Shown one piece after another: positions 32,942-50,756 of a stretch of 64,000 nucleotides of DNA. The stretch is from Paenibacillus aurantius (GTDB lineage Bacteria > Bacillota > Bacilli > Paenibacillales > NBRC-103111): NCBI RefSeq assembly GCF_032268605.1, contig NZ_CP130318.1, positions 687,501 to 751,500 of the forward strand, given 5' to 3'. How positions within the stretch are numbered: the stretch's first letter is position 1; every line of letters starts with the position of its first letter. A model generated the notes under the pieces. The model saw nothing but the letters and a program-made list of their open reading frames with translations, ran no database searches and was not told the origin of the DNA. The translations under genes were made by a program, and so were the position numbers.

Positions 32942-32965
32942 AAGAAGCAGCTATCACGTTTATTT

Positions 32966-33132
32966 CTTTTCGTATAATTCCGGGAATGGGCCTGGAAGTC
33001 TCTACGAGATCACCGTAAATGATCTGGCTACGAAAAAAGGAAGATGGCGCAAAGCTTATGGTTTGATGGAGGCTTTGTGCATAATCTTCCTTCTTGATTG
33101 GGAGCCTAGGTCATAATGACCTGGGCTTTTTA
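32966..33132 (+). promoter_or_regulatory. Guanine-type purine riboswitch with terminator, upstream of pbuG
   Basis: The aptamer (32966-33040) has P1 CTTTTCG/CGAAAA, the J1/2 core TATAAT, a P2 hairpin closed by CCGG/CCTGG, J2/3 GTCTCTAC, P3 AGATC/GATCT and J3/1 GGCTA. The J3/1 base that reads the ligand is C, which indicates guanine/hypoxanthine rather than adenine. The expression platform ends in a 10-bp terminator stem GCCTAGGTCA / TGACCTGGGC (33104-33113 with 33117-33126) followed by TTTTTAT. Ligand binding should therefore stop transcription before pbuG. Confidence 0.92.
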
Positions 33133-35829: not shown

Positions 35830-35875
35830 GAAGGCAGGAAAAAAGCCATTTTACCCAATTCATAAAGCAATCCAA

Positions 35876-36057
35876 AGCTCTCGTATAAAGTCGGGGATAC
35901 GGCCCGAAAGTTTCTACCCGAAAACCATAAATTTTTGGACTACGAGGATGGAGGAACGCCGCTTGGTTATGCCCGTGCTGTACGGGGAGAGCAGGCGCCT
36001 TTCTTTGTCGTCCGTCGGATGAAGCCCTTTAGCGGGCTTTGCCGGGGCGTTTTTTTG
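35876..36057 (+). promoter_or_regulatory. Guanine-type purine riboswitch with terminator, leader of the pur operon
   Basis: The aptamer (35876-35950) has P1 CTCG/CGAG, J1/2 TATAA, P2 TCGGG/CCCGA around GATACGG, J2/3 GTTTCTACC, P3 and J3/1 GGACTA. The specificity base is C, so guanine is the expected ligand. A bulged terminator stem, CGTCCGTCGGATGAAGCCC (36009-36027) folding on GGGCTTTGCCGGGGCG (36034-36049), is followed by seven T (36050-36056). Guanine should cause early termination. The 120 nt from the terminator to purE hold no further signal apart from the RBS. Confidence 0.92.
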
Positions 36058-36175: not shown

Positions 36176-36661
36176 ATGACCGCGCGAGTCGGTGTGATTA
36201 TGGGAAGCCAGTCGGACTGGGAAACGATGAAGCATGCGTGCGACGTGTTGGATGAACTGGAGATACCTTACGAGAAAAAGGTCGTGTCGGCTCACCGCAC
36301 GCCCGATCTGATGTTCGAGTACGCCGAAGGGGCGGCCGGACGCGGGCTTCAAGTCATTATAGCCGGAGCGGGCGGAGCCGCTCACCTGCCTGGGATGGTG
36401 GCTTCGAAGACGGAGCTCCCCGTGATCGGGGTGCCGGTCAAGTCGGCAAGCCTGAACGGACTGGACTCGCTTCTCTCGATCGTTCAGATGCCAGGCGGGA
36501 TTCCCGTGGCCACGGTGGCCATCGGCAAAGCCGGAGCGACGAACGCGGGCCTTCTGGCCGCCCAGATTCTCGGGGCGTTCGAGCCGGAGATCCGCGAGCG
36601 GGTGCGCAGCCGCCGCGAGAAGATCAAGCAGGCGGTCCTCGAAAGCAGTGAGCAGCTATGA
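36176..36661 (+). CDS. purE: N5-carboxyaminoimidazole ribonucleotide mutase
   Basis: A 161-aa class-I PurE that converts N5-CAIR, the PurK product, to CAIR. Conserved blocks are [43 protein letters not shown] and the 40s-loop region [19 protein letters not shown]. It is the first gene of the operon after the riboswitch. Stop and purK start overlap (ATGA). Confidence 0.96.
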
Positions 36662-37917
36662 GCGGACGGAAAGAGGAGCATCAGCCGGTGACGGCGCCGG
36701 AGGGTAACCAGGGAAGTGGCAGGGTGGCCGCTCACGCAGGAGGGACCCGCGAGGGCGAGAGTGCGAAGGCTCCCGTTCTTCTGCCCGGCAGCACGATCGG
36801 CGTGCTGGGCGGCGGGCAGCTCGGCCGCATGCTGGCGCTCGCCGGCAGCGCCATGGGCTACCGCTTCGTCGCCCTGGACCCGACGGAAGATTCGCCGATG
36901 GGCCAGGTGGCCGGCCGGCAAATCACCGCCGCGTACGACGACGCGGATGCCGCCCGCGAGCTGGCTAAGCTCGCGGACGTGATTACGTACGAATTCGAGA
37001 ATGTGGATGCCGGCGTGGCCGGCATGCTCCAGGCCGAATCGTACGTGCCGCAGGGCAGCCGGCTGCTGCATATGACGCAGCACCGGCTGCGCGAGAAGCG
37101 TGCGATCGAGGCGGCGGGCGTGCGCGTCGCGCCCTACGCCGAGATCGCAAGCGCGCACGAGCTGCGCGAGCAGGTGGCGGTCTTCGGGACGCCGTGCGTC
37201 CTGAAGACCTGCACCGGCGGCTACGACGGCAAAGGGCAGTGGGTCATCCGCTCGGCGGACGAAGTCGACGAGGCGTATAACACGCTGGCCCGGGCCGGCA
37301 CGGAGCTCGTGCTCGAGCAGTTCGTGCCCTTCGAGCGCGAGATCAGCGTGATCGCGGCTCGAAGCCCCCGCGGGGAAGTGAAGGCATTCCCCGCAGCGGA
37401 GAACATCCACGTGGACAACATCCTGCATTTGTCCATCGTGCCCGCCCGGACGACCGAAGCCGTGCTCCGCGAGGCGGAGGCGATGGCGGTCCGGCTGGCG
37501 GAATCGCTCGGCGTCGTCGGCCTCCTGGCGGTGGAGATGTTCCTCACACGGGACGGCGAGCTGTACGTGAATGAGCTCGCGCCGCGGCCGCACAATTCCG
37601 GCCATTACACGATGGAGGCTTGCCGCACCTCGCAGTTCGAGCAGCATGTCCGCGCCGTGTGCAACCTGCCGCTCGGCTCGACCGAGCTCATGACCCCGGT
37701 GGTCATGGCGAACCTGCTCGGCGAACATATGGAGCCGGCGCTGCAGTGGCTCGCGGAGCAGACGGCCGAAGAGGAAGGGCTCGCGGTGAAGCTTCACCTG
37801 TACGGCAAGCACGAAGCGAAGGCCAAGCGGAAGATGGGCCATATCAACGTGCTCGCAGCCGATACCGGGAAGGCGCTCGCCTGGGTGGAACGTTCAGGGA
37901 TTTGGAAAGACCGCTGA
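36658..37917 (+). CDS. purK: N5-carboxyaminoimidazole ribonucleotide synthase
   Basis: A 419-aa ATP-grasp enzyme that carboxylates AIR with bicarbonate and ATP. The glycine-rich [13 protein letters not shown] begins only at residue 48. Residues 1-44 are a low-complexity, Gly/Glu/Ala-rich extension not found in typical PurK (about 380 aa). Core motifs are [30 protein letters not shown] and [13 protein letters not shown]. The ATG overlapping the purE stop is used, although its RBS is weak; a GTG at 36724 is an alternative. It is the last gene before the repeat that interrupts the operon. Confidence 0.94.
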
Positions 37918-38065
37918 GGTCCAGACGAGGCCCCCGCGGCTGAGCGAAACGCTTATTTTATACAACGCCAACTTCAACGCCGGCATCCAGGCGTGGGTAA
38001 ACGAAAAGAACAGAAGGGCAGTCCCGAAGAACCGGACATCCGGACAGCGGGCTTACGCCTTTTTC

Positions 38066-38160
38066 CTAATGCCTTATCCGTTAGTCTTTGTACTGTTTTC
38101 TGTAGATTCGAGAGCATCCAGAGGTTTTCCCACCAACAAAGCTGCCGGATAAGGCACTAG
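38066..38160. repeat. Dispersed terminal-inverted-repeat element, copy B, inside the pur operon
   Basis: A 95-bp element with ends CTAATGCCTTATCCG and CGGATAAGGCACTAG. The right half (CCAACAAAG--GCCGGATAAGG) matches copies A and C; the left interior is diverged. It occupies a large part of the 295-bp purK-purB gap, an otherwise tightly packed operon. The rest of the gap (37918-38065) has no gene. Confidence 0.83.
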
Positions 38161-38212
38161 CATGCAGCCGGACTTACCGGCCTGACAATTTCCCGACGGA
38201 GGTACTTACGAC

Positions 38213-39511
38213 ATGATCGATCGTTACACAAGACCCGAAATGGCCGCCATCTGGACGGAGCAGAACAAATTCCAGGCATGGCTCGAAGTAGAGATTCTTT
38301 CCTGCGAGGCCTGGTCCGAGCTAGGCGTTATTCCGAAGGAAGATGTGGCCGAGCTGAGAGCGAAGGCCTCCTTCGACATCGACCGCATTTACGAAATCGA
38401 GCAGGAAACGCGCCACGACGTGATCGCCTTCACGCGCGCTGTCTCCGAGACGCTCGGGCCCGAGCGCAAATGGGTGCACTACGGCCTCACTTCTACGGAT
38501 GTCGTGGACACCGCCCTCGGCTACCTGCTCCGCCAGGCCAACGAGATCATCGAGAAGGACCTGCTCGCGTTCATCGATATCCTGCGCGACAAGGCGATCG
38601 CCTACAAGGACACCCCGATGATGGGACGGACGCACGGCGTGCATGCCGAGCCGACGACCTTCGGCCTCAAGATGGCGCTCTGGTATGAAGAGATGAAGCG
38701 CAACCTGGAGCGGTTCCGCTTCGCGGCGGACGGCGTCCAGTACGGCAAAATCTCCGGAGCCGTCGGCACCTACGCGAACATCGACCCGTTCATCGAGCAG
38801 TACGTGTGCGAGAAGCTCGGCACGAAGCCGGCTCCGATCTCCACCCAGACGCTGCAGCGCGACCGGCACGCCGAATACATGGCCACCCTGGCTCTGATCG
38901 CCACGTCCATGGACAAATTCGCCACCGAAATCCGCGCCCTGCAGAAGAGCGAGTTCCGCGAAGTCGAGGAGCCGTTCGCCAAGGGGCAAAAGGGCTCGTC
39001 CGCGATGCCGCACAAGCGCAACCCGATCGGCTGCGAAAGCATCTCCGGCCTGTCCCGCGTCGTCCGCGGCCACATGATCTCGGCCTACGAGAACGTCACC
39101 CTGTGGCATGAGCGCGACATCTCGCACTCCTCCGTCGAGCGGATCATCCTGCCGGACGCGACGCAGCTCGTCAACTACATGCTGAACCGTCTCGGCCGGA
39201 TCATCCAGAACCTGACGGTGTTCCCGGAGAACATGAAGCGCAACATGCAGAGCACGTACGGTGTTCCTTTCTCCGGCCGCGTCCTGACGAAGCTGATCGA
39301 CAAGGGCTTCTCCCGCGAGCAGGCGTACGATACGGTTCAGCCGAAGGCCATGCAGGCCTGGGAAACGCAGCGCTCGTTCCGCGACATCGTAGAGGCCGAT
39401 CCAGTCATCAGCGAGACGCTGACGAAGGAAGAAATCGCCGACTGCTTCGATCCAAGCTGGCATCTGAAGCATGTGGATACCATTTTCCGCCGATTGGGGT
39501 TGTCCGAATGA
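38213..39511 (+). CDS. purB: Adenylosuccinate lyase
   Basis: A 432-aa member of the fumarase/aspartase superfamily. It acts twice in purine synthesis: SAICAR to AICAR and adenylosuccinate to AMP. The signature [15 protein letters not shown] contains the flexible catalytic loop. [13 protein letters not shown] and [13 protein letters not shown] carry the catalytic histidines. RBS GGAGGTAC stands seven bases before the ATG. Its last codons overlap purC (ATGA). Confidence 0.96.
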
Positions 39512-40398
39512 GTGAGACCACCGCGCTGTATACCGCCGTCGACTATGTCCAAGCACCGCTCTTGTATAAAGGAAAGGTCCGGGAGCTGTATGACCTGGGC
39601 GAGCATTACCTGATCGTGGTAACGGACCGGATCTCGGCGTTCGATTACGTCCTGAAGCCGGCCGTGCCGGACAAAGGGAACGTCCTTAACCTGCTGAGCC
39701 GGTTCTGGTTCGACAAGACGGCTGACCTTCAGCCGAATCACGTCGTCCACTGCGATGTGGAGAAGCTCGGCGATCTCGTAACCGAGCCGGCTCTCCTGAA
39801 GGACCGCATCATGGTCACCCGCAAGGCCGAGCGCATCGACATCGAGTGCGTCGTGCGCGGCTACATCACGGGGGGCGGCTGGCGCCAGTATCAGGCGAAT
39901 GGCGAGATTAACGGGCACAAGCTGCCCGAAGGGCTCCGCAAGAACGCGAAGCTCGAGGAACCGATCTTCACCCCCGCCGCGAAGAACGATGTCGGCCATG
40001 ACGAGGACATCTCCATCGAACGGATGGAGGAGCTGGTCGGCAAGGAGCTGACCGCCGAGCTGCAGGAGAAGAGCCTGCGCCTCTACGAGTTCGCCCGGGA
40101 TTACTGCGAGAAACACGGCATCATCCTCGCCGACACGAAGTTCGAGTTCGGGCTGATCGACGGTCAGGTCATTCTGATCGACGAGATTTTCACCCCGGAT
40201 TCGTCCCGTTACTGGGCGGCGGAGAAGTACGCGCTCGATATCGAGATCGACGGCATGGACAAGGAGCCGGTCCGCACGTACCTGAGCCAATCGGGATGGG
40301 ACAAAAACAGCGAGCCGGATCCGCTGCCGGCGGACGTGGTGGAAGCGACGTCGAACCGGTACCGGGACATCCTGAACCGGATTGTAAGCACGGCGTAA
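39508..40398 (+). CDS. purC: SAICAR synthetase
   Basis: A 296-aa phosphoribosylaminoimidazole-succinocarboxamide synthase, which joins CAIR and aspartate using ATP. Motifs include [44 protein letters not shown] and [14 protein letters not shown]. The length is nearer the 290-300-aa form than the 240-aa B. subtilis form. The start overlaps the purB stop. Confidence 0.94.
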
Positions 40399-40525
40399 CA
40401 TAATCTGCTCTTTTATCCGGCCCATATCATCTGCTAGAGTCATAAGCCCAAAAGGGCCGGCATTTTTCCTACCCATGACCATGCATCGTTCCCGCGAGGG
40501 ACTCATTAAAGGAGGACAACTGTTC

Positions 40526-40768
40526 ATGTTAAAAGCTACCGTCTACGTAACCATTAAAGAAAGCGTATTGGACCCGCAGGGGAATGCGGTTCAGGGAGCC
40601 CTTCACTCCATGGGCTTCCAAGAGGTCGGGAAGGTGCGCATCGGCAAGTACCTGGAGGTCAACCTCGACACCGACGACCGCGCGGAGGCGGAAGAGCGCC
40701 TGAAAGCGATGTGCGAGAAGCTTCTCGCTAATACCGTCGTGGAAGATTACCGCTTCGAGATCGCTTAA
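40526..40768 (+). CDS. purS: FGAM synthase subunit PurS
   Basis: An 80-aa subunit that holds PurQ and PurL together for ammonia transfer. It has VYVTIKESVLDPQGNAVQGALHSMG and the VRIGKYLEV core of PurS. The frame is open for 17 codons upstream, but AAAGGAGG lies nine bases before the ATG at 40526. Confidence 0.95.
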   Translation: MLKATVYVTIKESVLDPQGNAVQGALHSMGFQEVGKVRIGKYLEVNLDTDDRAEAEERLKAMCEKLLANTVVEDYRFEIA

Positions 40769-40800
40769 CTTAATCGAATCACTTTCAGGGAGGGTGCAGC

Positions 40801-41493
40801 ATGAACTTTGGAGTTCTCGTTTTTCCGGGATCGAACTGTGACATAGATTGCTATAAAGCCGTGGAAGAAACGGTCGGCCAGAAGGTCGAATACGTTTGGC
40901 ACACGGAGACGGACCTTTCGCGTTTTGACTGCATTTTGGTGCCGGGAGGCTTCTCGTACGGGGATTACCTGCGCTGCGGCGCAATCGCCCGTTTTGCCCC
41001 GGTCATGGGTGCGCTCGTAAAATTCGCGGAGCAAGGCAAGTTTGTGCTCGGCATCTGCAACGGCTTCCAGATTCTGACCGAATCGGGCCTGCTGCCGGGA
41101 GCCCTGCTCCGCAACCGCACGCTGAAGTTCCGCTGCCATTCGGCGATGCTTCGCGTGGAGAATGCGGGCACTCCTTTTACGAACCAGTACCGCGAAGGGG
41201 AAGAGATCGACATCCCGATCGCGCACGGAGAAGGCAACTACTATTGCGACGCCGAGACGCTCGAGAAGCTGAAGGCGAACAACCAGATCGTTTTCCGTTA
41301 TGCAGGCAGTAACCCGAACGGTTCGGTGGACGATATCGCCGGTATCTGCAACGAACGGGGCAACGTGCTCGGCATGATGCCGCACCCGGAACGCGCCGTG
41401 AACCAGCTGCTCGGCTCCGAGGACGGCAAGCGCATGTTTACATCGATTCTGAACAAATGGAGGGAACAGCATGGCGCAGCAGCTATCCGCTAA
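40801..41493 (+). CDS. purQ: FGAM synthase glutaminase subunit PurQ
   Basis: A 230-aa class-I amidotransferase that supplies ammonia to PurL. The nucleophile is C86 in VLGICNGFQ, and the H/E pair lies in [20 protein letters not shown] at the N-terminus is typical of the small PurQ. It overlaps purL by 23 nt, which suggests translational coupling of the complex. GGGAGG precedes the ATG. Confidence 0.96.
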
Positions 41494-43717
41494 AGAACCG
41501 ACGGCCGAACAAATCGCCGATCAGCAAATCTACAAGCAAATGGGCGTCACCGACGACGAATATGCCAAAATCTGCGGGTTTCTCGGCCGCCAGCCGAACT
41601 ACGTGGAGATCGGCGTGTTCAGCGTCATGTGGTCGGAGCACTGCTCCTACAAGAACTCCAAGCCTGTCCTGAGAAAATTCCCGGTGACCGGACCACGCGT
41701 CCTTATGGGACCGGGCGAAGGCGCCGGCATCGTCGATATCGGCGACAACCAGGCGGTCGTGTTCAAAATCGAGTCCCACAACCATCCGTCCGCCGTCGAG
41801 CCTTATCAAGGCGCGGCTACGGGAGTGGGCGGGATTATCCGCGACATTTTCTCCATGGGTGCCCGTCCGGTGGCTCTTCTTAACTCCCTGCGGTTCGGCA
41901 AGCTTCAGAACGACCGCGTCAAATATTTGTTCGAGCATGTGGTCGGCGGGATCGCCGGCTACGGCAACTGCATCGGAATCCCGACCGTCGGCGGCGAAGT
42001 GATGTTCGACGAGAGCTACGAGGGCAACCCGCTCGTGAACGCCATGTGCGTCGGCTTGATCGATCATGACAAAATCCAGAAGGGCGTCGCCGAAGGGATC
42101 GGCAACCCGGTGTTCTACGTCGGTCCGGCTACGGGACGCGACGGCATTCACGGAGCCACGTTCGCTTCCGAGGAAATAACGGAAGAGACCGAAGCGAAGC
42201 GCTCGGCCGTTCAGGTCGGCGACCCGTTCATGGAGAAGCTCGTCCTCGAGGCGTGCCTGGACTTGATCAATTCCGGCATTGTCGTCGGAATCCAGGATAT
42301 GGGCGCCGCGGGGCTGACGTGCTCCAGTGCGGAGATGGCGTCGAAGGCCGGCAACGGTATGGAACTGAACCTCGACATGGTGCCTCAGCGCGAGGACGGC
42401 ATGACGGCTTACGAGATGATGCTCTCCGAATCACAGGAGCGCATGCTGTTTGTTGTAAAGCCGGAGCATGAAGAGCAGGCGAAGGGCATTTTTGCCCGCT
42501 GGGGACTGGACTGCCACAAGGTCGGCAAGGTGACCAACGACGGCCGCCTCCGCCTCATCCACAACGGCGAGGAAGTCGGCAACATGCCGGTTACGGCGCT
42601 CGTCGACGAGTGCCCGGTGTACAGCAAGCCGTCGCAGCTGCCGGCTTACTACGAGAAAAATGCGTCCGTCGATACGACCCGTTATGAGGAAGTGACGGAC
42701 CTGAACGGCGCCCTGGAGAAGGTTCTGGCTTCGCCGACGGTGGCGAGCAAGGAATGGGTCTACAGCCAGTACGACTACATGGTCCGCACGAGCACCGCGG
42801 TGCGTCCGGGCTCGGATGCAGCGGTCGTGACCATTCCAGGCACCCGCAAGGCGCTTGCCATGACAACCGACTGCAACGGCCGCTACGTCTACCTCGATCC
42901 CGAGGTAGGCGGGAAAATCGCCGTCAGCGAAGCGGCGCGCAACGTGGTCTGCTCGGGCGCCGAGCCGCTGGCCATCACGGACAACCTGAACTTCGGAAGC
43001 CCGGAGAAGCCGGAGATCTTCTGGCAGCTCGAGAAGGCCGTCGACGGCATGGCGGAAGCCTGCCGCGCGCTGAACTCGCCGGTTATCGGCGGGAACGTGA
43101 GCTTGTACAACGAGAATGCCAAAGGCGCCATCTACCCGACGCCGGTCGTTGGCATGGTCGGCTTGGTGCATGACGTGGACCACATCACGACCCAGAGCTT
43201 CAAGCGCGAAGGGGACGTGATCCTGCTCGCCGGCGAGACGAAGGCCGAGCTTGGCGGGAGCGAGTTCCAGTACGTGATTCACGGCGTGACGGAAGGCCGT
43301 CCTCCGCAGATCGACCTGAACGTGGAAAAAAACCTTCAGGAAGCGCTGCTTGGCGCTATCCAGCAGGGCCTGGTGGCTTCCGCGCATGACCTGTCCGAAG
43401 GCGGACTGGCCGCAGCACTTGCGGAGAGCTGCATCAGCGGCCGCATCGGGGCGGAGGTCGATTTTGCTTCGGACCTGCGTCCGGACATCGCGCTGTTCAG
43501 CGAGAGCCAGTCCCGCGTGCTGCTGAGCGCCACGCCCGATAAGGCGGAGGCTTTGCAGAAGCATTTGGCTGACCGTGGGGTTCCGGTCGTGAAGTTGGGT
43601 ACGGTAGGAGGGAAAGACCTGTCGGCTTCGGTCAACCGCAAGCCGGCTATCCGTTCATCCGTCGATCAGCTAGAAAAAGCCTGGAAGGATGCGATCCCAT
43701 GTCTGATGAACTCATAA
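41471..43717 (+). CDS. purL: FGAM synthase large subunit PurL (small form)
   Basis: A 748-aa ATP-dependent synthase of the PurSQL type (about 740 aa), not the 1,300-aa fused form. It converts FGAR to FGAM. Blocks seen are [57 protein letters not shown]-type glycine repeats, and [27 protein letters not shown] precedes the ATG by 7 nt inside purQ. The last 19 nt overlap purF. Confidence 0.96.
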
Positions 43718-45171
43718 ACCCCCAGCCGTTATGGACCGGGCGTTATTATAATGAGGGAGTCGATTCGGACGTTTTTGATAAATTGAAAGAGGAATGCGGG
43801 GTCTTCGGGGTGTTCGGTCACCCGGAGGCTTCGGCCCTTTCGTTCTTCGGGCTTCATGCCCTGCAGCACCGCGGGGAAGAGAGCGCGGGCGTCTGCACCA
43901 CCGTGGACGGAAGCGAGTTCTTTGTTCACAAAGGCATGGGCCTGGTGAAGGAAGTCTTCACGAACGAGCGCATTGAGTACTTGAAGGGAACGACGGCCAT
44001 CGGGCACGTCCGGTATTCGACGTCGGGAGCAAGCAAGCTGGAGAATGCGCAGCCGCTTGTGTTCAAGTACCGCGGCGGAAACATCGCCATCTGCACGAAC
44101 GGTAACATCACCAACGCGGATGAGATCCGCGCCGAGCTCGAGGAGGAAGGCTCGATCTTCCAGACGACAAGCGATACCGAGGTGGTCATTCACCTCATCT
44201 CGCGGTCCAAGGCGAACGGGCTTGTCATGGCGGTCAAGGAAGCGCTGCGCCGCGTTGTCGGCGGGTTTGCCTTCCTGATCATGGTCAACGACCGCCTGTT
44301 TGTGGCCCGCGATCCCCACGGCCTGAGGCCGCTGGCTATGGCGAAGCTCGGAGACGCGTACCTGTTCGCCTCGGAAACGTGCGCTTTCGAAACAGTCGGC
44401 GCCGAATTCATCCGCGACATCGAGCCGGGCGAGCTCCTCATCTTCGATAGCGATGGGCTGAAGGAGGACCGGTTTGCCGAGATGGAGCGGCGGGCGCTCT
44501 GTGCCATGGAGTATATCTACTTCTCGCGGCCCGACAGCGACCTGGACAACATCAACCTCCATTCCTCCCGCAAAAGAATGGGGCAGCAGCTCGCGATGGA
44601 AGCGTTCGTGGACGCCGACGTCGTGACCGGCGTGCCGGATTCGAGCATCTCGGCGGCGATCGGCTTCGCCGAGCAGACGGGCATCCCTTACGAGCTCGGG
44701 ATGATCAAGAACCGGTACACCGGCCGGACCTTCATCCAGCCGAGCCAGGAACTTCGGGAGCGTGGCGTGAAGATGAAGCTGAGCGCCGTGCGCAAGGTGG
44801 TCGAGGGCAAGCGCGTCGTCATGATCGACGACTCGATCGTCCGCGGGACCACTTCTCTGCGCATCGTGAATATGCTTCGCGAGGCCGGCGCGGCCGAGGT
44901 TCATGTGCGGATCAGTTCACCGCCGTACATGAACCCGTGCTTCTACGGCATCGACACGCCGAGCCGCAAGGAGCTCATCGCGTCGACGAAATCGGTCGAG
45001 GAAATTCGCCGCTCGATCAACGCGGACTCGCTGCATTTCCTCTCGAAGGACGGCCTGCTCGAAGCGATCGGCCGCCCCGTCGGCGAGTACAACCGGGGCA
45101 TGTGCACCGGCTGCTTCGACAACGACTACCCGACGCCGGTGAACGACGAGGACCCCAGCTGCGGGTGTTAG
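43699..45171 (+). CDS. purF: Amidophosphoribosyltransferase
   Basis: A 490-aa enzyme for the first committed step: PRPP plus glutamine to phosphoribosylamine. A 32-residue propeptide ends before the N-terminal nucleophile C33 ([10 protein letters not shown]). The PRPP loop is [14 protein letters not shown]. The C-terminus contains [11 protein letters not shown] and CGC, consistent with the cysteine ligands of the 4Fe-4S cluster of the Bacillus-type enzyme. It overlaps purL. Unusually, 675 bp without a gene follow before purM. Confidence 0.96.
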
Positions 45172-45518
45172 TGGGGCGGGAGCCGAGTGAGGTGGAAACG
45201 CTAGCGAGGCAGAGGTTGGAAAGACGTTTAGCGAACGCTGGGCAGGCAAGAGACAGTTCAGAGACTGGTGAAAGGCTGGGCGGTCCCTTCCCCAGGCAGC
45301 CGGATCGGGTCCAGGTGCTTGGCAGGAAGCTAGGTGCGGGTCTGGATGGACCCTTAGCTGGTCTCGGGTATCGAACCACGCCAGTTCGGGAGCCGCATGC
45401 TAATTAGGAACACCCGAGGGAGGCCGCTGGGACAGCTCAAGTGAGGAAGTCGAGATTCATCCGAGGCTGCCGGGGTCCCTTGACGGAATAAAGGAACTCG
45501 GTTCCTTTATTCGCCGTT

Positions 45519-45571
45519 CTGGAGGGGATGGTGAAAGGATAGAGGAAAAATCCCCTCCAGCGGCTATTTTT
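45519..45571 (+). terminator. Terminator-like hairpin between purF and purM
   Basis: CTGGAGGGGA (45519-45528) and TCCCCTCCAG (45551-45560) form a perfect 10-bp stem with a 22-nt loop. A run of five T follows after six bases (CGGCTATTTTT). It could reduce transcription of purM and later genes, but the distance to the T-run makes this uncertain. Confidence 0.45.
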
Positions 45572-45589
45572 GACCGGATTCGCCGGATA

Positions 45590-45661
45590 TAGCGAACCAT
45601 AGTTCCTCTAAATTTTGAATAAGTAGGCAAAATGGGTGATTAGCGCACCGTAGTTCCTCTA
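45590..45661 (+). repeat. Two 21-bp direct repeats
   Basis: Positions 45590-45610 and 45641-45661 agree at 19 of 21 bases. They are 51 bp apart and flanked by AT-rich sequence. They may be part of a REP-like repeat family of this genome. Confidence 0.75.
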
Positions 45662-45846
45662 TTTTCGAGCGGATGCTCGTGGCAGGACGAATAGAGGGCT
45701 TCGGCTAACTTCGAACCACTGCGCCGCAGGGCGAGCGGAAGAGGCCGGTACCTTCAAGAGCCTGCTTTCGGTGGCCGGACTGGATCCGCTATCCTCGGAG
45801 GAAGCATGCGCGATCACCCAAGCCGCCAACCAAAGGAGAGATCACA

Positions 45847-46887
45847 GTGTCAGAAGCCTACAAAAAAGCCGGAGTCGACATCGCGGCGGGCAACGAAGCC
45901 GTAGAACGCATGAAAAAGCACGTGAAACGTACGATGCGTCCCGGGGTGATGACCGACCTGGGCGGCTTCGGCGGCCTGTTCGGGCTGAACAAGGACCAAT
46001 ACGAGGAGCCTGTGCTCGTGTCCGGAACCGACGGCGTCGGCACGAAGCTCAAGGTGGCTTTTGCCATGGATAAGCATGATACGATCGGAATCGACGCCGT
46101 GGCGATGTGCGTGAACGACATCATCGTACAGGGCGCGGAGCCTCTGTTCTTCCTCGATTACCTGGCCACGAGCAAGGTTGTGCCGGAGAAGATCGAGGCG
46201 ATCGTAGCGGGCATCTCCGAAGGCTGCGTGCAGGCGGGCTGTGCCTTGATCGGCGGCGAAACGGCTGAAATGCCGGGGATGTACACCGACGGCGAATACG
46301 ACATTGCCGGGTTCACGGTCGGCATCGTGGACAAGAAGAAGATCATCGACGGCTCGACGATCCGTCCGGGAGATATCGTGCTTGGCCTAGCCTCGAGCGG
46401 CATCCACAGCAACGGCTACTCGCTCGTTCGCCGTCTTCTTCTTGAGGAGAAGGGCTACGGGCTGGACCAGCACATCGATGAGCTCGGCGCCAAGCTGGGC
46501 GACGTGATTCTGGAGCCGACGCGCATCTACGTCAAATCCGTTCTCGGCATGCTGGAGAAGGCGGAGATCAAAGGCATGGCGCACATCACCGGCGGGGGCT
46601 TCCTGGAGAACATCCCGCGCTGTCTGCCGGATGGTGTCAACGTGGAGATTGATTACGGTTCCTGGCCGATCCTGCCGATCTTCGAGCTTCTGCAAAAAGC
46701 CGGCAGCATCACGAACAACGACATGTTCCGCACGTTCAACATGGGCATCGGCATGGTCGTGATCGTGTCGGAGGAACAGGCGGCGGCAGCGGAGCAGGCC
46801 GCCAAGGAGCTGGGCGAGAGCGTGTACCGCCTCGGCCGCGTCACCGAAGGCGACAAGCAGGTGACGTTCACCGGAGCGGACGTCTAA
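45847..46887 (+). CDS. purM: Phosphoribosylformylglycinamidine cyclo-ligase (AIR synthetase)
   Basis: A 346-aa ATP-dependent enzyme that closes the imidazole ring (FGAM to AIR). Motifs are [55 protein letters not shown] and [13 protein letters not shown]. The GTG start follows AAAGGAGAG by eight bases. Its stop codon overlaps purN by one base. Confidence 0.96.
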
Positions 46888-47501
46888 TGAAGCCTTATCG
46901 GATCGCCGTTCTCGCTTCGGGGAGCGGCAGCAATTTTCAGGCCATCGTCGATGCGGTGGCCGCGGGGAAGCTCGATGTCCGCGTCGAGCTTCTGGTTTGT
47001 GACCGGCCGCAGGCGCCGGTCGTGGAAAGGGCACGGCGTGCCGGCGTGCCGGTCTTCGCCTTCCGCCCGAAGGAGTATCCTTCGCGGGAAGTGTATGAGA
47101 CCGAGATCGTCCGGCAGCTGCAGGAGCGCGGGGTTGATCTCGTCGTGATGGCCGGTTACATGCGGCTCATCACCGATACGCTTCTCGCGCCATACGTGGG
47201 CCGGATCGTGAACGTGCATCCGTCGCTCCTGCCGGCTTTTCCGGGTATGGACGCGGTCGGACAAGCTCTGGCTTACGGAGCGAAAGTGGCCGGCATCACG
47301 GTTCATTTTGTGGATGGCGGCATGGACACCGGGCCGATCATCGCCCAGCGGGCTGTAGAGATTCAAGAGGACGACACCGCGGAGACGCTCGCTCTTCGCC
47401 TTCATAGAATCGAGCATGAGCTGTACCCGGAGGTTATTGGCTGGCTGCGCGCAGGGCGTGCGGTGCTGGAGGAGAACGGCCGCCGGGTACGGATTCACTA
47501 A
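46887..47501 (+). CDS. purN: Phosphoribosylglycinamide formyltransferase
   Basis: A 204-aa folate-dependent GART that transfers a formyl group from 10-formyl-THF to GAR. It has IAVLASGSGSNFQAIVDA, MAGYMRLI, the catalytic region NVHPSLLPAFPG (N and H) and HFVDGGMDTGPII (D). The ATG overlaps the purM stop. Confidence 0.95.
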   Translation: MKPYRIAVLASGSGSNFQAIVDAVAAGKLDVRVELLVCDRPQAPVVERARRAGVPVFAFRPKEYPSREVYETEIVRQLQERGVDLVVMAGYMRLITDTLLAPYVGRIVNVHPSLLPAFPGMDAVGQALAYGAKVAGITVHFVDGGMDTGPIIAQRAVEIQEDDTAETLALRLHRIEHELYPEVIGWLRAGRAVLEENGRRVRIH

Positions 47502-47529: not shown

Positions 47530-48708
47530 ATGACGAATGGCAACGAGCTGTCCCTGCGCTACGGGATGAACCCCCATCAGAAAGAAGCGAAGCTGACGAA
47601 CGGCGGCAAGCCGCTGCCGATTCGCGTGTTGAATGGAGATCCGGGCTTTATCAACCTGCTGGATGCGTTGAATGCGTTCCAGCTGGTGCGCGAGCTGCGC
47701 CATGCGACAGGCGAGCCGGCAGCGGCCTCGTTCAAGCATGTCTCCCCGGCCGGAGCCGCGGTTAACAGCCCGCTGACGCCGGAGCTCGCCCAGGCTTACG
47801 GCGTGTCCGGACTGGAGCTGTCTCCGCTGGCTACGGCTTATGCGCGTGCGCGCGGAGCGGACCGGATGTCGTCCTTCGGCGACGCGGCGGCGCTGAGCGA
47901 CGTGGTCGACGAGTCGACGGCTAAGCTTTTGAAACGCGAAGTATCCGATCTGGTGGTCGCTCCCGGTTACACGCCGGAAGCCCTTGACCTTCTGAAACAG
48001 AAAAAGGGCGGCAAATACCTCATCCTGGAGATCGACCCGAATTACGTGCCGGAGCCGATCGAGCAGCGCAACCTGTTTGGCTTGACACTGCAGCAGGAGC
48101 GCAACAATGCCGTGCTGACCGAAGCGTCCTTCGAGCGTATCGTGACGGAGAACCAGGAGCTGCCGGACAGCGCCAAGCGCGATCTGCTCGTCGCCCTGAT
48201 TACGCTGAAATATACGCAGTCGAACTCCATCTGCTATGCCCTTGACGGCCAGACGATCGGTATCGGCGCCGGCCAGCAGTCCCGCATACACTGTACCCGC
48301 CTGGCGGGGGACAAGGCCGACCGGTGGTTTTTGCGGCAGCACCCGATTGCGCTTGGCATGAAGTTCCGTGAAGGACTCGCGCGTGCCGAGCAGAACAATG
48401 CCATCGACCTGTGGCTCGAGGAAGAGCTTACTCCGATCGAGCAGGCAAGCTGGGAGCAGGCGTTCGAGGAAGTGCCGCCCCGTTTAACCCGCGAGGAGAA
48501 GCGCGAATGGCTGAATGGCTTGAAGAACGTTGCTTACGGCTCGGATGCGTTCCTGCCGTTCCGCGACAACATCGACCGGGCTTCCCGCAGCGGAGTGAAA
48601 TACGTCGTACAGGCCGGCAGCTCGATGCGCGATCAGGAAGTCGTGCAGGCGGCGAACGATTACGGCATGGTCATGGTGTATTCCGGCGTGCGTTTGTTCC
48701 ACCATTAA
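47530..48708 (+). CDS. purH: AICAR formyltransferase, stand-alone (PurH C-terminal domain only)
   Basis: A 392-aa protein that aligns with the second domain of bifunctional PurH only. It begins LSLRYGMNPHQKEA, a sequence found about 200 residues into ordinary PurH. The catalytic Lys-His pair is in ASFKHVSPAGAAV (K69, H70); SNSICYALDGQTIGIGAGQQSR and the C-terminal SGVKYVVQAGSSMRDQEV block are conserved. It should formylate AICAR to FAICAR with 10-formyl-THF. The N-terminal MGS-like IMP cyclohydrolase domain is missing and not encoded upstream; the next gene appears to replace it. RBS AAGGAAGGGAT is near the ATG. PurH-like paralogues without the cyclohydrolase domain are known in some bacteria. 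Confidence 0.9.
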   Translation: MTNGNELSLRYGMNPHQKEAKLTNGGKPLPIRVLNGDPGFINLLDALNAFQLVRELRHATGEPAAASFKHVSPAGAAVNSPLTPELAQAYGVSGLELSPLATAYARARGADRMSSFGDAAALSDVVDESTAKLLKREVSDLVVAPGYTPEALDLLKQKKGGKYLILEIDPNYVPEPIEQRNLFGLTLQQERNNAVLTEASFERIVTENQELPDSAKRDLLVALITLKYTQSNSICYALDGQTIGIGAGQQSRIHCTRLAGDKADRWFLRQHPIALGMKFREGLARAEQNNAIDLWLEEELTPIEQASWEQAFEEVPPRLTREEKREWLNGLKNVAYGSDAFLPFRDNIDRASRSGVKYVVQAGSSMRDQEVVQAANDYGMVMVYSGVRLFHH

Positions 48709-48750
48709 GAGAAGAGGGCGGCAAGCCTGAGAAGGGGGCAGGATCGGAAA

Positions 48751-49479
48751 ATGGCAGGAAATTGGCAGGCGCTCGCGGATGCGACCATCCGTGAGCTGAA
48801 GGAGAATGTCTATCCGGGACGTGGCATCATCATCGGCTTAACGCCGGACGGATCGCGGTTTATGCAGGTGTATTGGATCATGGGGCGGAGCGAGAACAGC
48901 CGCAACCGGATTTTTGTGGAGGAAGAGAACGGATACCTGCGGACGGAAGCCGCCGACCCGGCGAAGCTGTCCGACCCGTCGCTTATCATTTATTATCCGG
49001 TCCGCCATACCGGCGGGGCGCATATCGTGACGAACGGGGACCAGACGGATACCATTTACGAAGCGCTGCAGCAGGGCGGCACGTTCGAAGGGGCTCTGGC
49101 TACACGTACGTATGAGCCGGACGGCCCGAATTTTACGCCTCGGATTTCCGGCGTTGTAGACCTTGGGGACAAGCAGAATGCGTACAAGCTGTCGATCCTG
49201 AAGTCGAACGACAACGACGAGTCGCAGACGAAGCGGCAGTATTTTCATTATGAGCAGGCCCTTGCCGGGTACGGGCATTTTATCTCGACGTACCAGGGAG
49301 ACGGCAACCCGCTGCCTTCGTTCGATGGGGAACCGAAGCTTGCTCCGCTGTTTGACAGCGCCGAGGAGACGACCCGCTTCTACTGGAACCTGCTGAATGC
49401 GGACAACCGCATCTCGCTTTTGGTGAAGACCATTTCGCGCGAGAGCGGCGAAGCTCAGCTGACCGTGTTGAATAAATAG
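48751..49479 (+). CDS. purO: IMP cyclohydrolase, archaeal PurO-type
   Basis: A 242-aa protein resembling the PurO family (PF07826-like Ntn-fold IMP cyclohydrolase), which closes FAICAR to IMP. Seen: PGRGIIIGLTPDGSRFMQVYW and GRSENSRNRIF near the N-terminus, which correspond to the archaeal SRSFPNR-type segment, and AHIVTNGDQTDTI, like the archaeal NG-x-HTD-x-I block. Its place directly after the formyltransferase and before purD, in the gap normally filled by the PurH cyclohydrolase function, supports the call. The family assignment is by pattern recognition only. The start ATG is preceded by AAGGGGGCAGGATCGGAA. Confidence 0.82.
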   Translation: MAGNWQALADATIRELKENVYPGRGIIIGLTPDGSRFMQVYWIMGRSENSRNRIFVEEENGYLRTEAADPAKLSDPSLIIYYPVRHTGGAHIVTNGDQTDTIYEALQQGGTFEGALATRTYEPDGPNFTPRISGVVDLGDKQNAYKLSILKSNDNDESQTKRQYFHYEQALAGYGHFISTYQGDGNPLPSFDGEPKLAPLFDSAEETTRFYWNLLNADNRISLLVKTISRESGEAQLTVLNK

Positions 49480-49496: not shown

Positions 49497-50756
49497 ATGA
49501 AAGTCATGGTCATTGGCCGGGGAGGCCGGGAACATGCGATTATATGGGCGTTGAGCCAAAGCCCGAAGATTACGAAGCTTCTCTGCGCCCCCGGCAACGG
49601 AGGGATTGCGGAGCTCGCGGAATGCGTTCCGATCGGAGAGCTCGAATTCGATAAAATCAGCGACTACGCGCTGGAAAACAAAGTCGACCTGGTCTTCGTG
49701 GCGCCGGACGACCCGCTCGCAGCGGGACTGGTCGACCATCTGGAGTCCCACGGGATCCGTGCTTACGGCCCGAACAAGGATGCGGCGATCATCGAAGGCA
49801 GCAAGGCATTTATGAAAAACCTGCTCAAAACGTACCGCATTCCGACCGCGGCTTATGAATCGTTCGACAACTATGAGGAAGCGCTCGGATACCTGCGCAA
49901 ACAGGGAGCGCCGATCGTCATCAAAGCGGACGGACTGGCAGCAGGAAAAGGCGTCATCGTGGCCCAGACGATGGAGGAAGCGGAAGAGGCGTTGAAGTCG
50001 ATCATGGTCGACCAAGCTTTCGGCGCATCCGGCAATCGAGTCGTCATCGAGGAATTCCTGACGGGGCAGGAGATGTCGCTGCTCGCGTTCGTAGACGGAA
50101 CGGTCGTCCGGCCGATGGTCCCTTCGCAGGACCACAAGCCGGTGTTCGACAACGACCAAGGGCCGAACACGGGCGGCATGGGCACGTATTCGCCCGTTCC
50201 GCACATTGATCCGGCTATCGTGCAGGAAGCCCTGGAGACCATCGTTATCCCGACAGCAGAGGCGATGGTGAAGGAAGGGCGCCCGTTCCGCGGCGTGCTC
50301 TATGCCGGCTTGATGCTGACGCCCGACGGGCCGAAAACGATCGAGTTCAACGCCCGCTTCGGCGATCCGGAGACGCAGGTGCTGCTGCCCCGGCTGAAGA
50401 CGGACCTGTTCGAGATCGTACTGGCGACGCTCGAAGGACGTCTCGGCGAGCTGGAGATCGAGTGGAGCGAGGAAGCGGCCGTATGCGTCATCCTGGCGTC
50501 GCCCGGCTACCCGGGCTTGTACCCGAAAGGGCTCGTGATCGACGGGCTTGCCGACGTGAAGGATGCGCTCGTGTTCCATGCGGGAACGGCTGTCGAGAAC
50601 GGACGGACGGTCACCGCGGGCGGCCGCGTGCTGGGCGTAGTGGGCAAAGGCCGCGATATCGCGGAAGCCCGCGAGCGAGCCTATGCTGAAGCGGATAAGA
50701 TCCGCTTCGAGGGCAAGCACTACCGCACGGATATCGCCAAGAAGGCGCTGGTATAA
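49497..50756 (+). CDS. purD: Phosphoribosylamine-glycine ligase (GAR synthetase)
   Basis: A 419-aa ATP-grasp ligase joining phosphoribosylamine and glycine. Motifs are VIGRGGREHAI, VFVAPDDPLAAGLVD, PIVIKADGLAAGKGVIVA, SLLAFVDG and IEFNARFGDPETQVLLPRL. GGAGGAGGG precedes the ATG. It is the last gene of the operon, 17 nt after purO and followed at once by a terminator. Confidence 0.96.
   Translation: MKVMVIGRGGREHAIIWALSQSPKITKLLCAPGNGGIAELAECVPIGELEFDKISDYALENKVDLVFVAPDDPLAAGLVDHLESHGIRAYGPNKDAAIIEGSKAFMKNLLKTYRIPTAAYESFDNYEEALGYLRKQGAPIVIKADGLAAGKGVIVAQTMEEAEEALKSIMVDQAFGASGNRVVIEEFLTGQEMSLLAFVDGTVVRPMVPSQDHKPVFDNDQGPNTGGMGTYSPVPHIDPAIVQEALETIVIPTAEAMVKEGRPFRGVLYAGLMLTPDGPKTIEFNARFGDPETQVLLPRLKTDLFEIVLATLEGRLGELEIEWSEEAAVCVILASPGYPGLYPKGLVIDGLADVKDALVFHAGTAVENGRTVTAGGRVLGVVGKGRDIAEARERAYAEADKIRFEGKHYRTDIAKKALV

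Follow-up and report, generated by a model that had tools for sequence, protein, structure and literature searches.

A formyltransferase-PurO gene pair likely to stand in for PurH, at an exchangeable operon slot, in Paenibacillus aurantius and its relatives

Most bacteria use one two-part protein, PurH, for the last two steps of purine biosynthesis. In a 64,000-nucleotide stretch of the Paenibacillus aurantius genome (contig NZ_CP130318.1, positions 687,501 to 751,500; hereafter the window), the pur operon reads purE-K-B-C-S-Q-L-F-M-N-[FT-PurO]-D, an order that, with its slot between purN and purD, we take to be that of B. subtilis. The slot is occupied by genes for a predicted stand-alone formyltransferase (FT) of the type that acts on 5-aminoimidazole-4-carboxamide ribonucleotide (AICAR) and for a predicted inosine monophosphate (IMP) cyclohydrolase of the PurO family (Table 1), and the intergenic gaps from purN to purD measure 28, 42 and 17 bp. 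An earlier note on this DNA had proposed that the pair replaces PurH; both open reading frames were found where it placed them and with the lengths it gave, as were the K69/H70 pair of FT and the VTNGDQTD motif of PurO. From the comparisons below, we think it very likely that FT and PurO jointly do the work of PurH. Within the family, this cassette and purH have probably replaced each other on several occasions at this one slot.

Table 1. Features of the pur operon in the window, with the matches on which each assignment is based.
Feature	Position	Strand	Basis
Stand-alone ATIC-type AICAR formyltransferase (FT), 392 residues, K69/H70	47530..48708	+	NF005492, PDB sequence matches
PF07826 IMP cyclohydrolase, bacterial PurO branch, 242 residues (activity predicted)	48751..49479	+	PF07826, PDB 2ntk/1kuu
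purN, gene before the exchangeable slot	46887..47501	+	PF00551 and TIGR00639 above cut-off
purD, gene after the exchangeable slot	49497..50756	+	TIGR00877 544.4 bits
Upstream pur operon purE, K, B, C, S, Q, L, F, M	36176..46887	+	Pfam (purE, B, C, S, F, M); tblastn order in relatives
Purine riboswitch aptamer ahead of purE	35861..35962	+	RF00167 73.6 bits, gathering score 37

The first cassette protein carries the AICAR formyltransferase domain alone, as the earlier note had held. It matches the stand-alone formyltransferase model NF005492 with 638.7 bits (cut-off 415) over profile positions 2-390 of 390, reaches 304.8 bits with the bifunctional PurH model TIGR00355, under the cut-off of 528, and matches PF01808 with 204.1 bits (cut-off 25) over positions 76-311 only; Pfam gave no MGS domain match within it. 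It is a member of the NF005492/PRK07106 stand-alone AICAR formyltransferases, from which we found no difference. At an E value of 1e-100, the stand-alone FT model matched none of 14 named control genomes. Among PDB sequences, five scored 467.7-489.4 bits against FT, and four other, PurH chains scored 85.8-103.3 bits. The former are presumably eukaryotic ATIC (chicken 1g8m and 1m9n, human 1p4r and two fungal sequences), and the latter we take to be bacterial PurH. One of these four, 4A1O, is Mycobacterium tuberculosis PurH (PMC10912719).

Over 391 residues, FT shares 58.6% identity with the chicken ATIC domain, as against 28-35% (best tblastn segment) with 16 canonical PurH sequences, comprising the 12 family loci L015-L026 and the four phylum loci L227-L230; the same 16 sequences are 26-33% identical to the chicken domain. 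In addition, the FT motifs RYGMNPHQ, SFKHVSPAGAAV, RGADRMSSFGD and RLFHH are identical in aligned ATIC sequences. In a tree of 36 hand-chosen rows, a branch of 4.18 changes per column with support of 100/100 has six canonical PurH domains on one side and 29 bacterial stand-alone FTs on the other, together with chicken ATIC, the single eukaryote, whose position among the bacterial FTs the tree does not resolve. The path from the window FT to chicken ATIC measures 1.33, that to the PurH of L015 6.46. The kinship with ATIC concerns its C-terminal domain; the window FT, unlike ATIC, is not fused to an MGS-type cyclohydrolase. One might instead picture FT as the C-terminal half of a decayed PurH whose lost N-terminal half was replaced by PurO; FT does lack an MGS domain, and loss of a domain has been proposed for an archaeon (PMC3261824). 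Such a remnant is at odds with the far higher identity to chicken ATIC than to canonical PurH, and we rejected PurH decay on the long, fully supported branch between the two kinds of FT; we regard it as extremely improbable. Judged by sequence, the FT is no trimmed PurH.

The second cassette protein matches PF07826 with 194.6 bits (cut-off 28.1; E 1.6e-57), the outcome of a profile search that the earlier note had put forward as a check. Used as a single query, it found the structures 2NTK and 1KUU with E values of 0.00025 and 0.00063; with a profile of 17 bacterial PurO sequences (the window protein, three of 12 family loci and 13 of 23 phylum loci, the archaeal-like L041 and L042 being excluded), the E values were 1.9e-8 and 3.3e-8. 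Residues R51, Y81 and E122 of the window PurO align with R30, Y59 and E104 of 2NTK, which we take to be the catalytic positions of PurO, and are invariant in 17 of 17 bacterial PurO sequences. The catalytic residues proposed for PurO, named by type only, are one arginine, one glutamate and one tyrosine (PMC6797443). With archaeal PurO (MTH1020, structures 2NTK/2NTL/2NTM; MJ0626; TK0430) the window protein shares PF07826 membership, the aligned Arg/Tyr/Glu and a similar length; it differs in an N-terminal extension of about 20 residues, in having a folate-dependent type of FT as its partner, in falling far under the archaeal equivalog cut-offs and in carrying Asp for Asn at contact position 54. 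The predicted cyclohydrolase is a bacterial branch of PF07826, and the near kin found are bacterial. The term 'archaeal-type' used in the earlier note stands as far as family membership goes, but does not extend to the archaeal equivalogs or to the closest relatives. The PurO proteins of L041 (G185) and L042 (G143) pass the archaeal equivalog cut-offs, and both of these phylum genomes also carry a long-type FT; archaeal-type and bacterial-type PurO thus both occur in the phylum. L003, L032 and L153 fail the same cut-offs.

The genome containing the window is a single contig of 6.3 Mb and 99.93% complete. It holds one PF01808 match, one PF07826 match and two MGS-domain matches, of which one lies in an 1140-residue frame and is read as CarB, and the other, beside dapB-like and bshB-like open reading frames, is read as MgsA. 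Both MGS matches lack the N-terminal PF01808 segment (positions 1-60 to 1-83) typical of stand-alone PurH2-type proteins, a marker derived from 20 examples elsewhere. Searches with the PF01808, PF07826 and MGS profiles found no second PurH or PurH2-type protein in this genome. With a single PF01808 match, no PurH2-type protein and a PF07826 score above cut-off, the combination that the earlier note saw as fatal to its proposal, a complete PurH elsewhere and no PF07826 match, was not found. In the 14 control genomes, PF01808 was present in 12 and PF07826 in two, the archaea M. jannaschii and H. volcanii; PF07826 was absent from B. subtilis and E. coli. The likely mgsA of the window genome (L295 1421-1838) is seemingly in two frames, and its MGS match covers profile positions 40-94 only.

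We compared 104 genomes of the family and 398 of the phylum, samples that we read, from named loci, as the Paenibacillus group and Bacillota. PurH was called from PF01808 coverage from position 1, and FT from a PF01808 start well inside the profile (48-77 in complete matches) in an open frame of roughly 390-440 residues. In the family, PurO occurs in 56/104 genomes, a canonical PurH match in 50/104 (the G087 copy has internal stops) and a long-type FT without canonical PurH in 51/104, the window genome included. All 51 of the last group have PurO, FT being partial in G005 and G078. Three genomes have no PF01808 match: G007 and G026 lack both genes, and in G075 PurO is present, close to the end of a contig. 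A long-type FT is also present in six of the 50 PurH genomes (G014, G035, G048, G051, G056 and, as a broken piece, G017).

In the phylum sample, 381/398 genomes have a PF01808 match; individual classing covered the 60 with a long-type FT. PurO occurs in 24/398, and in each of these 24 the only PF01808 protein is a long-type FT, PurH being absent. The 60 comprise these 24, 20 in which a PurH2-type protein is encoded separately (matching PF01808 at its N-terminal part, in open frames of 193-264 residues) and 16 with canonical PurH; every long-type FT genome has a cyclohydrolase candidate, and PurO is never found without FT. FT adjoins PurO within roughly 1.5 kb on each side in 15 of the 24 loci. 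The 20 genomes with a long-type FT and a PurH2-type protein of about 200 residues elsewhere (e.g. G132, G247, G375) show a third way of organising the two final steps. The earlier note spoke of similar splits in some other bacteria, which, given these counts, is an understatement.

Among named relatives, the best 80 of at least 593 loci come from Paenibacillus tyrfis, Thermobacillus and mostly Lachnospiraceae and other Clostridia, together with metagenome-assembled genomes labelled Brocadiaceae and Gemmatimonadota. FT is present in 74 of these 80 loci, at most 500 bp from PurO in 71, and was not found within the DNA stretch around PurO in six. PurO comes first in 72 and FT in two (Paenibacillus/Thermobacillus); FT also precedes PurO in L040, from a phylum genome outside the family. 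On a megaplasmid of Lachnospira eligens, the two genes are adjacent, and existing annotation names them IMP cyclohydrolase and formyltransferase.

Several observations weigh against a cyclohydrolase role of the bacterial PurO or against a fixed pairing with FT. The window PurO scores 38.1 bits with the archaeal equivalog model TIGR01922 (cut-off 158.35) and 48.6 bits with NF003167 (cut-off 150). Its residue at substrate-contact position 54 is Asp75, not Asn; in archaeal PurO this residue is Asn in 23 of 25 proteins and Ser in the remaining two (PMC3261824). The archaeal motif VSNGSHTD reads VTNGDQTD in the window protein, and PurO activity assays in the literature searched concern archaeal enzymes only. 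Four of the 50 PurH genomes of the family (G013, G017, G018, G060) keep a PurO outside the operon alongside canonical PurH, and PurO may therefore also serve another role. In nine of the 24 phylum PurO genomes FT does not lie within about 1.5 kb of PurO, so adjacency is not universal. Finally, in G023, which belongs to the same species, the PurO match (G023:C1:2626293-2626918) is split over two frames, probably by an assembly error rather than by mutation.

Points of this kind could be accommodated if FT were active while the PF07826 protein had another role, formyl-AICAR (FAICAR) being cyclised by an unrecognised enzyme as supposed for crenarchaea; such cyclohydrolases have been proposed (PMC3261824, PMC6797443), and both the divergence of the bacterial PurO branch and the lone PurO genes beside canonical PurH would fit. 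Nevertheless, all 60 phylum genomes with a long-type FT have a recognisable cyclohydrolase candidate (PurO 24, PurH2-type 20, PurH 16), and the putative catalytic R51, Y81 and E122 are kept in 17/17 sequences. We consider this other role highly unlikely, and continue with FT and PurO as joint performers of the PurH reactions.

The contents of the operon slot also bear on this function. We compared 61 operons: 29 with FT-PurO and 29 with PurH from 58 of the 104 family genomes, and three from elsewhere in the same order. In 61/61 the slot lies between purN and purD and is filled by FT-PurO or by PurH, never by both. That relatives carry either at the same spot suggests that FT-PurO and PurH are interchangeable, and the slot difference between close relatives would amount to a natural complementation. 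Since the rest of the operon is constant while this step changes hands, we regard the slot contents as the strongest indication of function that can be had without an assay. Family assignments, absence of PurH genome-wide, co-occurrence and slot exchange together support the earlier note's central claim that the purH slot holds an FT plus PurO-like pair as a PurH replacement.

On a tree of purB, C, Q, L and F (59/61 rows), the FT-PurO/PurH trait requires seven changes, at least five of them being forced by well-supported branches. It requires seven on the purM tree, eight on the purD tree and, on the purN tree, three under one model and five under another. On rpoB trees (60/61 rows), the changes required number seven (at least two) for protein and four (at least four) for DNA. 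A single clade of FT-PurO carriers is rejected by the approximately unbiased (AU) test, with p-AU 2.7e-43 for purB, C, Q, L and F and 8.8e-4 for rpoB DNA. Moreover, within one genus, G072 (FT-PurO) forms a clade with G079 and G086 (both PurH), supported at 99 (Shimodaira-Hasegawa-like approximate likelihood ratio test) in the rpoB protein and operon trees. In these comparisons, recombination may have affected the operon genes too, and rpoB is a single gene.

There are signs that the cassette itself has moved. In the cassette tree, G024 groups with 14 g18 and g21 rows at 100/100. A clade of G002 and G024 is rejected by the cassette (p-AU 5e-4), yet rpoB protein places the two together at 96; the 15-row grouping of the cassette tree is in turn rejected by rpoB DNA (p-AU 7e-4). 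Both groups were named after the trees had been seen. For the window genome (G000) and its nearest cassette kin (G002), a joint clade is not rejected by rpoB DNA (p-AU 0.635), and the window's own cassette may have been inherited together with that of this relative. The tree constrained to this clade even gained 12.9 log units, which shows that the quick rpoB search had stopped short of the optimum. The purN tree, which joins G072 with 14 other FT-PurO rows at 99, hints that purN was transferred along with the cassette; we do not claim this, because a clade of G072, G079 and G086 on purN is not rejected (p-AU 0.106).

As regards history alone, a family ancestor could have possessed both purH and FT-PurO, with lineages losing one or the other and no exchange taking place. 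Parts of both systems do occur in a few genomes, change counts cannot separate gain from loss, and the G000 and G002 clade permitted by rpoB DNA would suit such a history. Arguing the other way, none of the 61 operons holds both, and the cassette and rpoB trees conflict over the two groups named post hoc. We consider differential loss unlikely and favor exchange of the cassette with purH.

In the scheme we propose, FT would transfer a formyl group from 10-formyl-tetrahydrofolate onto AICAR, giving FAICAR, and PurO would close the ring of FAICAR to yield IMP and water, thereby pulling the formylation forward. Both genes lie in one riboswitch-headed operon and would be co-transcribed. We infer exchange rather than differential loss, presumably by way of homologous recombination. 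Two separate proteins should suffice for the task, because an E. coli strain deleted for purH grows again when supplied with an archaeal PurO and a PurH1 domain (PMC6797443), and human PurH shows no channelling between its domains, according to work cited in the same paper. Repeats at the cassette ends are short and poorly matching. Recent import was considered on the basis of composition and rejected, as the GC contents of FT (61.7%) and PurO (57.9%) are no outliers among the operon genes (54.8-67.9%) and the window (58.0%).

A bolder reading, which we hold tentatively and would rate at somewhat under an even chance, is that FT-PurO is a mobile, reversible equivalent of purH, swapped by recombination in the flanking pur genes, and that the formyltransferase domain of eukaryotic ATIC falls within the bacterial stand-alone FT lineage. 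ATIC would then have arisen from a PurH2-like domain plus such an FT, and would be no descendant of bacterial PurH.

As for the remainder of the operon, purK, purQ and purL were named by position and length rather than by a library match. The 3' end of the riboswitch aptamer lies 213 bp upstream of purE. The window contains a further purine riboswitch aptamer at 32950-33050, about 2.9 kb from the one that precedes purE. The longest gap in the operon, 675 bp, lies between purF and purM (window 45172-45846).

FT and PurO copies were also encountered outside pur operons. In G035, whose genome has canonical PurH, an intact long-type FT (390 residues, 57% identical) lies among polyketide synthase genes (L226 1384-12686), with ketosynthase (KS), dehydratase (DH), carrier and thioesterase domains upstream and AMP-binding and KS-carrier proteins downstream; it has perhaps been recruited into a natural-product cluster. 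In G060, which likewise has canonical PurH, a lone PurO with a 262-residue open frame lies about 600 bp upstream of a ketosynthase-like protein (L222 5875-12204), followed by an AMP-binding ligase and a phosphoribosyltransferase-like protein. The lone PurO genes of G013, G017 and G018 (L217, L219, L221) also lie outside the pur operon of genomes with canonical PurH: the match in G013 starts at residue 31, the first in-frame ATG, GTG or TTG being at residue 44; in G018 residues 6-195 alone align; and in G017 FT occurs as two pieces elsewhere in the genome.

Plasmids of Priestia, Lactiplantibacillus, Bacteroides, Streptomyces and Mycobacterium (L154, L155, L291-L293) carry a long-type FT with no adjoining PurO, and no other purine gene is annotated in the stretches examined. 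A Nocardia terpenica plasmid (L153 7950-8693) encodes a PurO-like protein, 29.5% identical and annotated as IMP cyclohydrolase, with no FT annotated in the stretch examined. In a phage collection, PurO matches came from 10 unannotated 'Bacteriophage sp.' records of faecal origin, at least eight of which also have a long-type FT match; we read these records as bacterial contigs.

PurO has been called exclusive to Archaea (PMC4177761), a statement that does not fit the present data. PurO-like genes have been counted in 22 of 1266 bacteria (cited in PMC6797443), PurO is listed in a Butyrivibrio proteome (PMC5217386), and the excerpts of PMC10912719 do not mention it. PurH1 with PurO has been described in Halobacteria and Methanosaeta thermophila (PMC3261824). 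Those systems resemble the present one in combining a folate-dependent FT with PurO and no PurH2, but the halobacterial PurH1 is fused to PurN, and that of M. thermophila has 130 extra N-terminal residues. Canonical bacterial PurH occupies the same slot as the cassette and is expected to perform the same two reactions, but is a single chain whose FT domain is only distantly similar to the window FT and whose cyclohydrolase is without sequence or structural similarity to PurO (PMC6797443). Searches of the open-licence literature brought up nothing that we recognised as dealing with the slot exchange or with the ATIC kinship of stand-alone FT. Bacterial PurO-like genes are already in print and in automatic annotation; the interesting parts are the exchangeable slot and the ATIC kinship.

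Organisms other than archaea are said to use bifunctional PurH almost uniformly (PMC6797443). This picture does not fit the family, in which 51/104 genomes have FT without canonical PurH, nor the named loci of Lachnospiraceae and other Clostridia. The findings point to bacterial PurO enzymes that could be assayed and to a group of bacteria where the source of the ATIC transformylase domain could be sought. A slot in which a two-domain enzyme and two non-homologous or very distant proteins appear to swap would offer a clean natural test of whether the PurH fusion matters.

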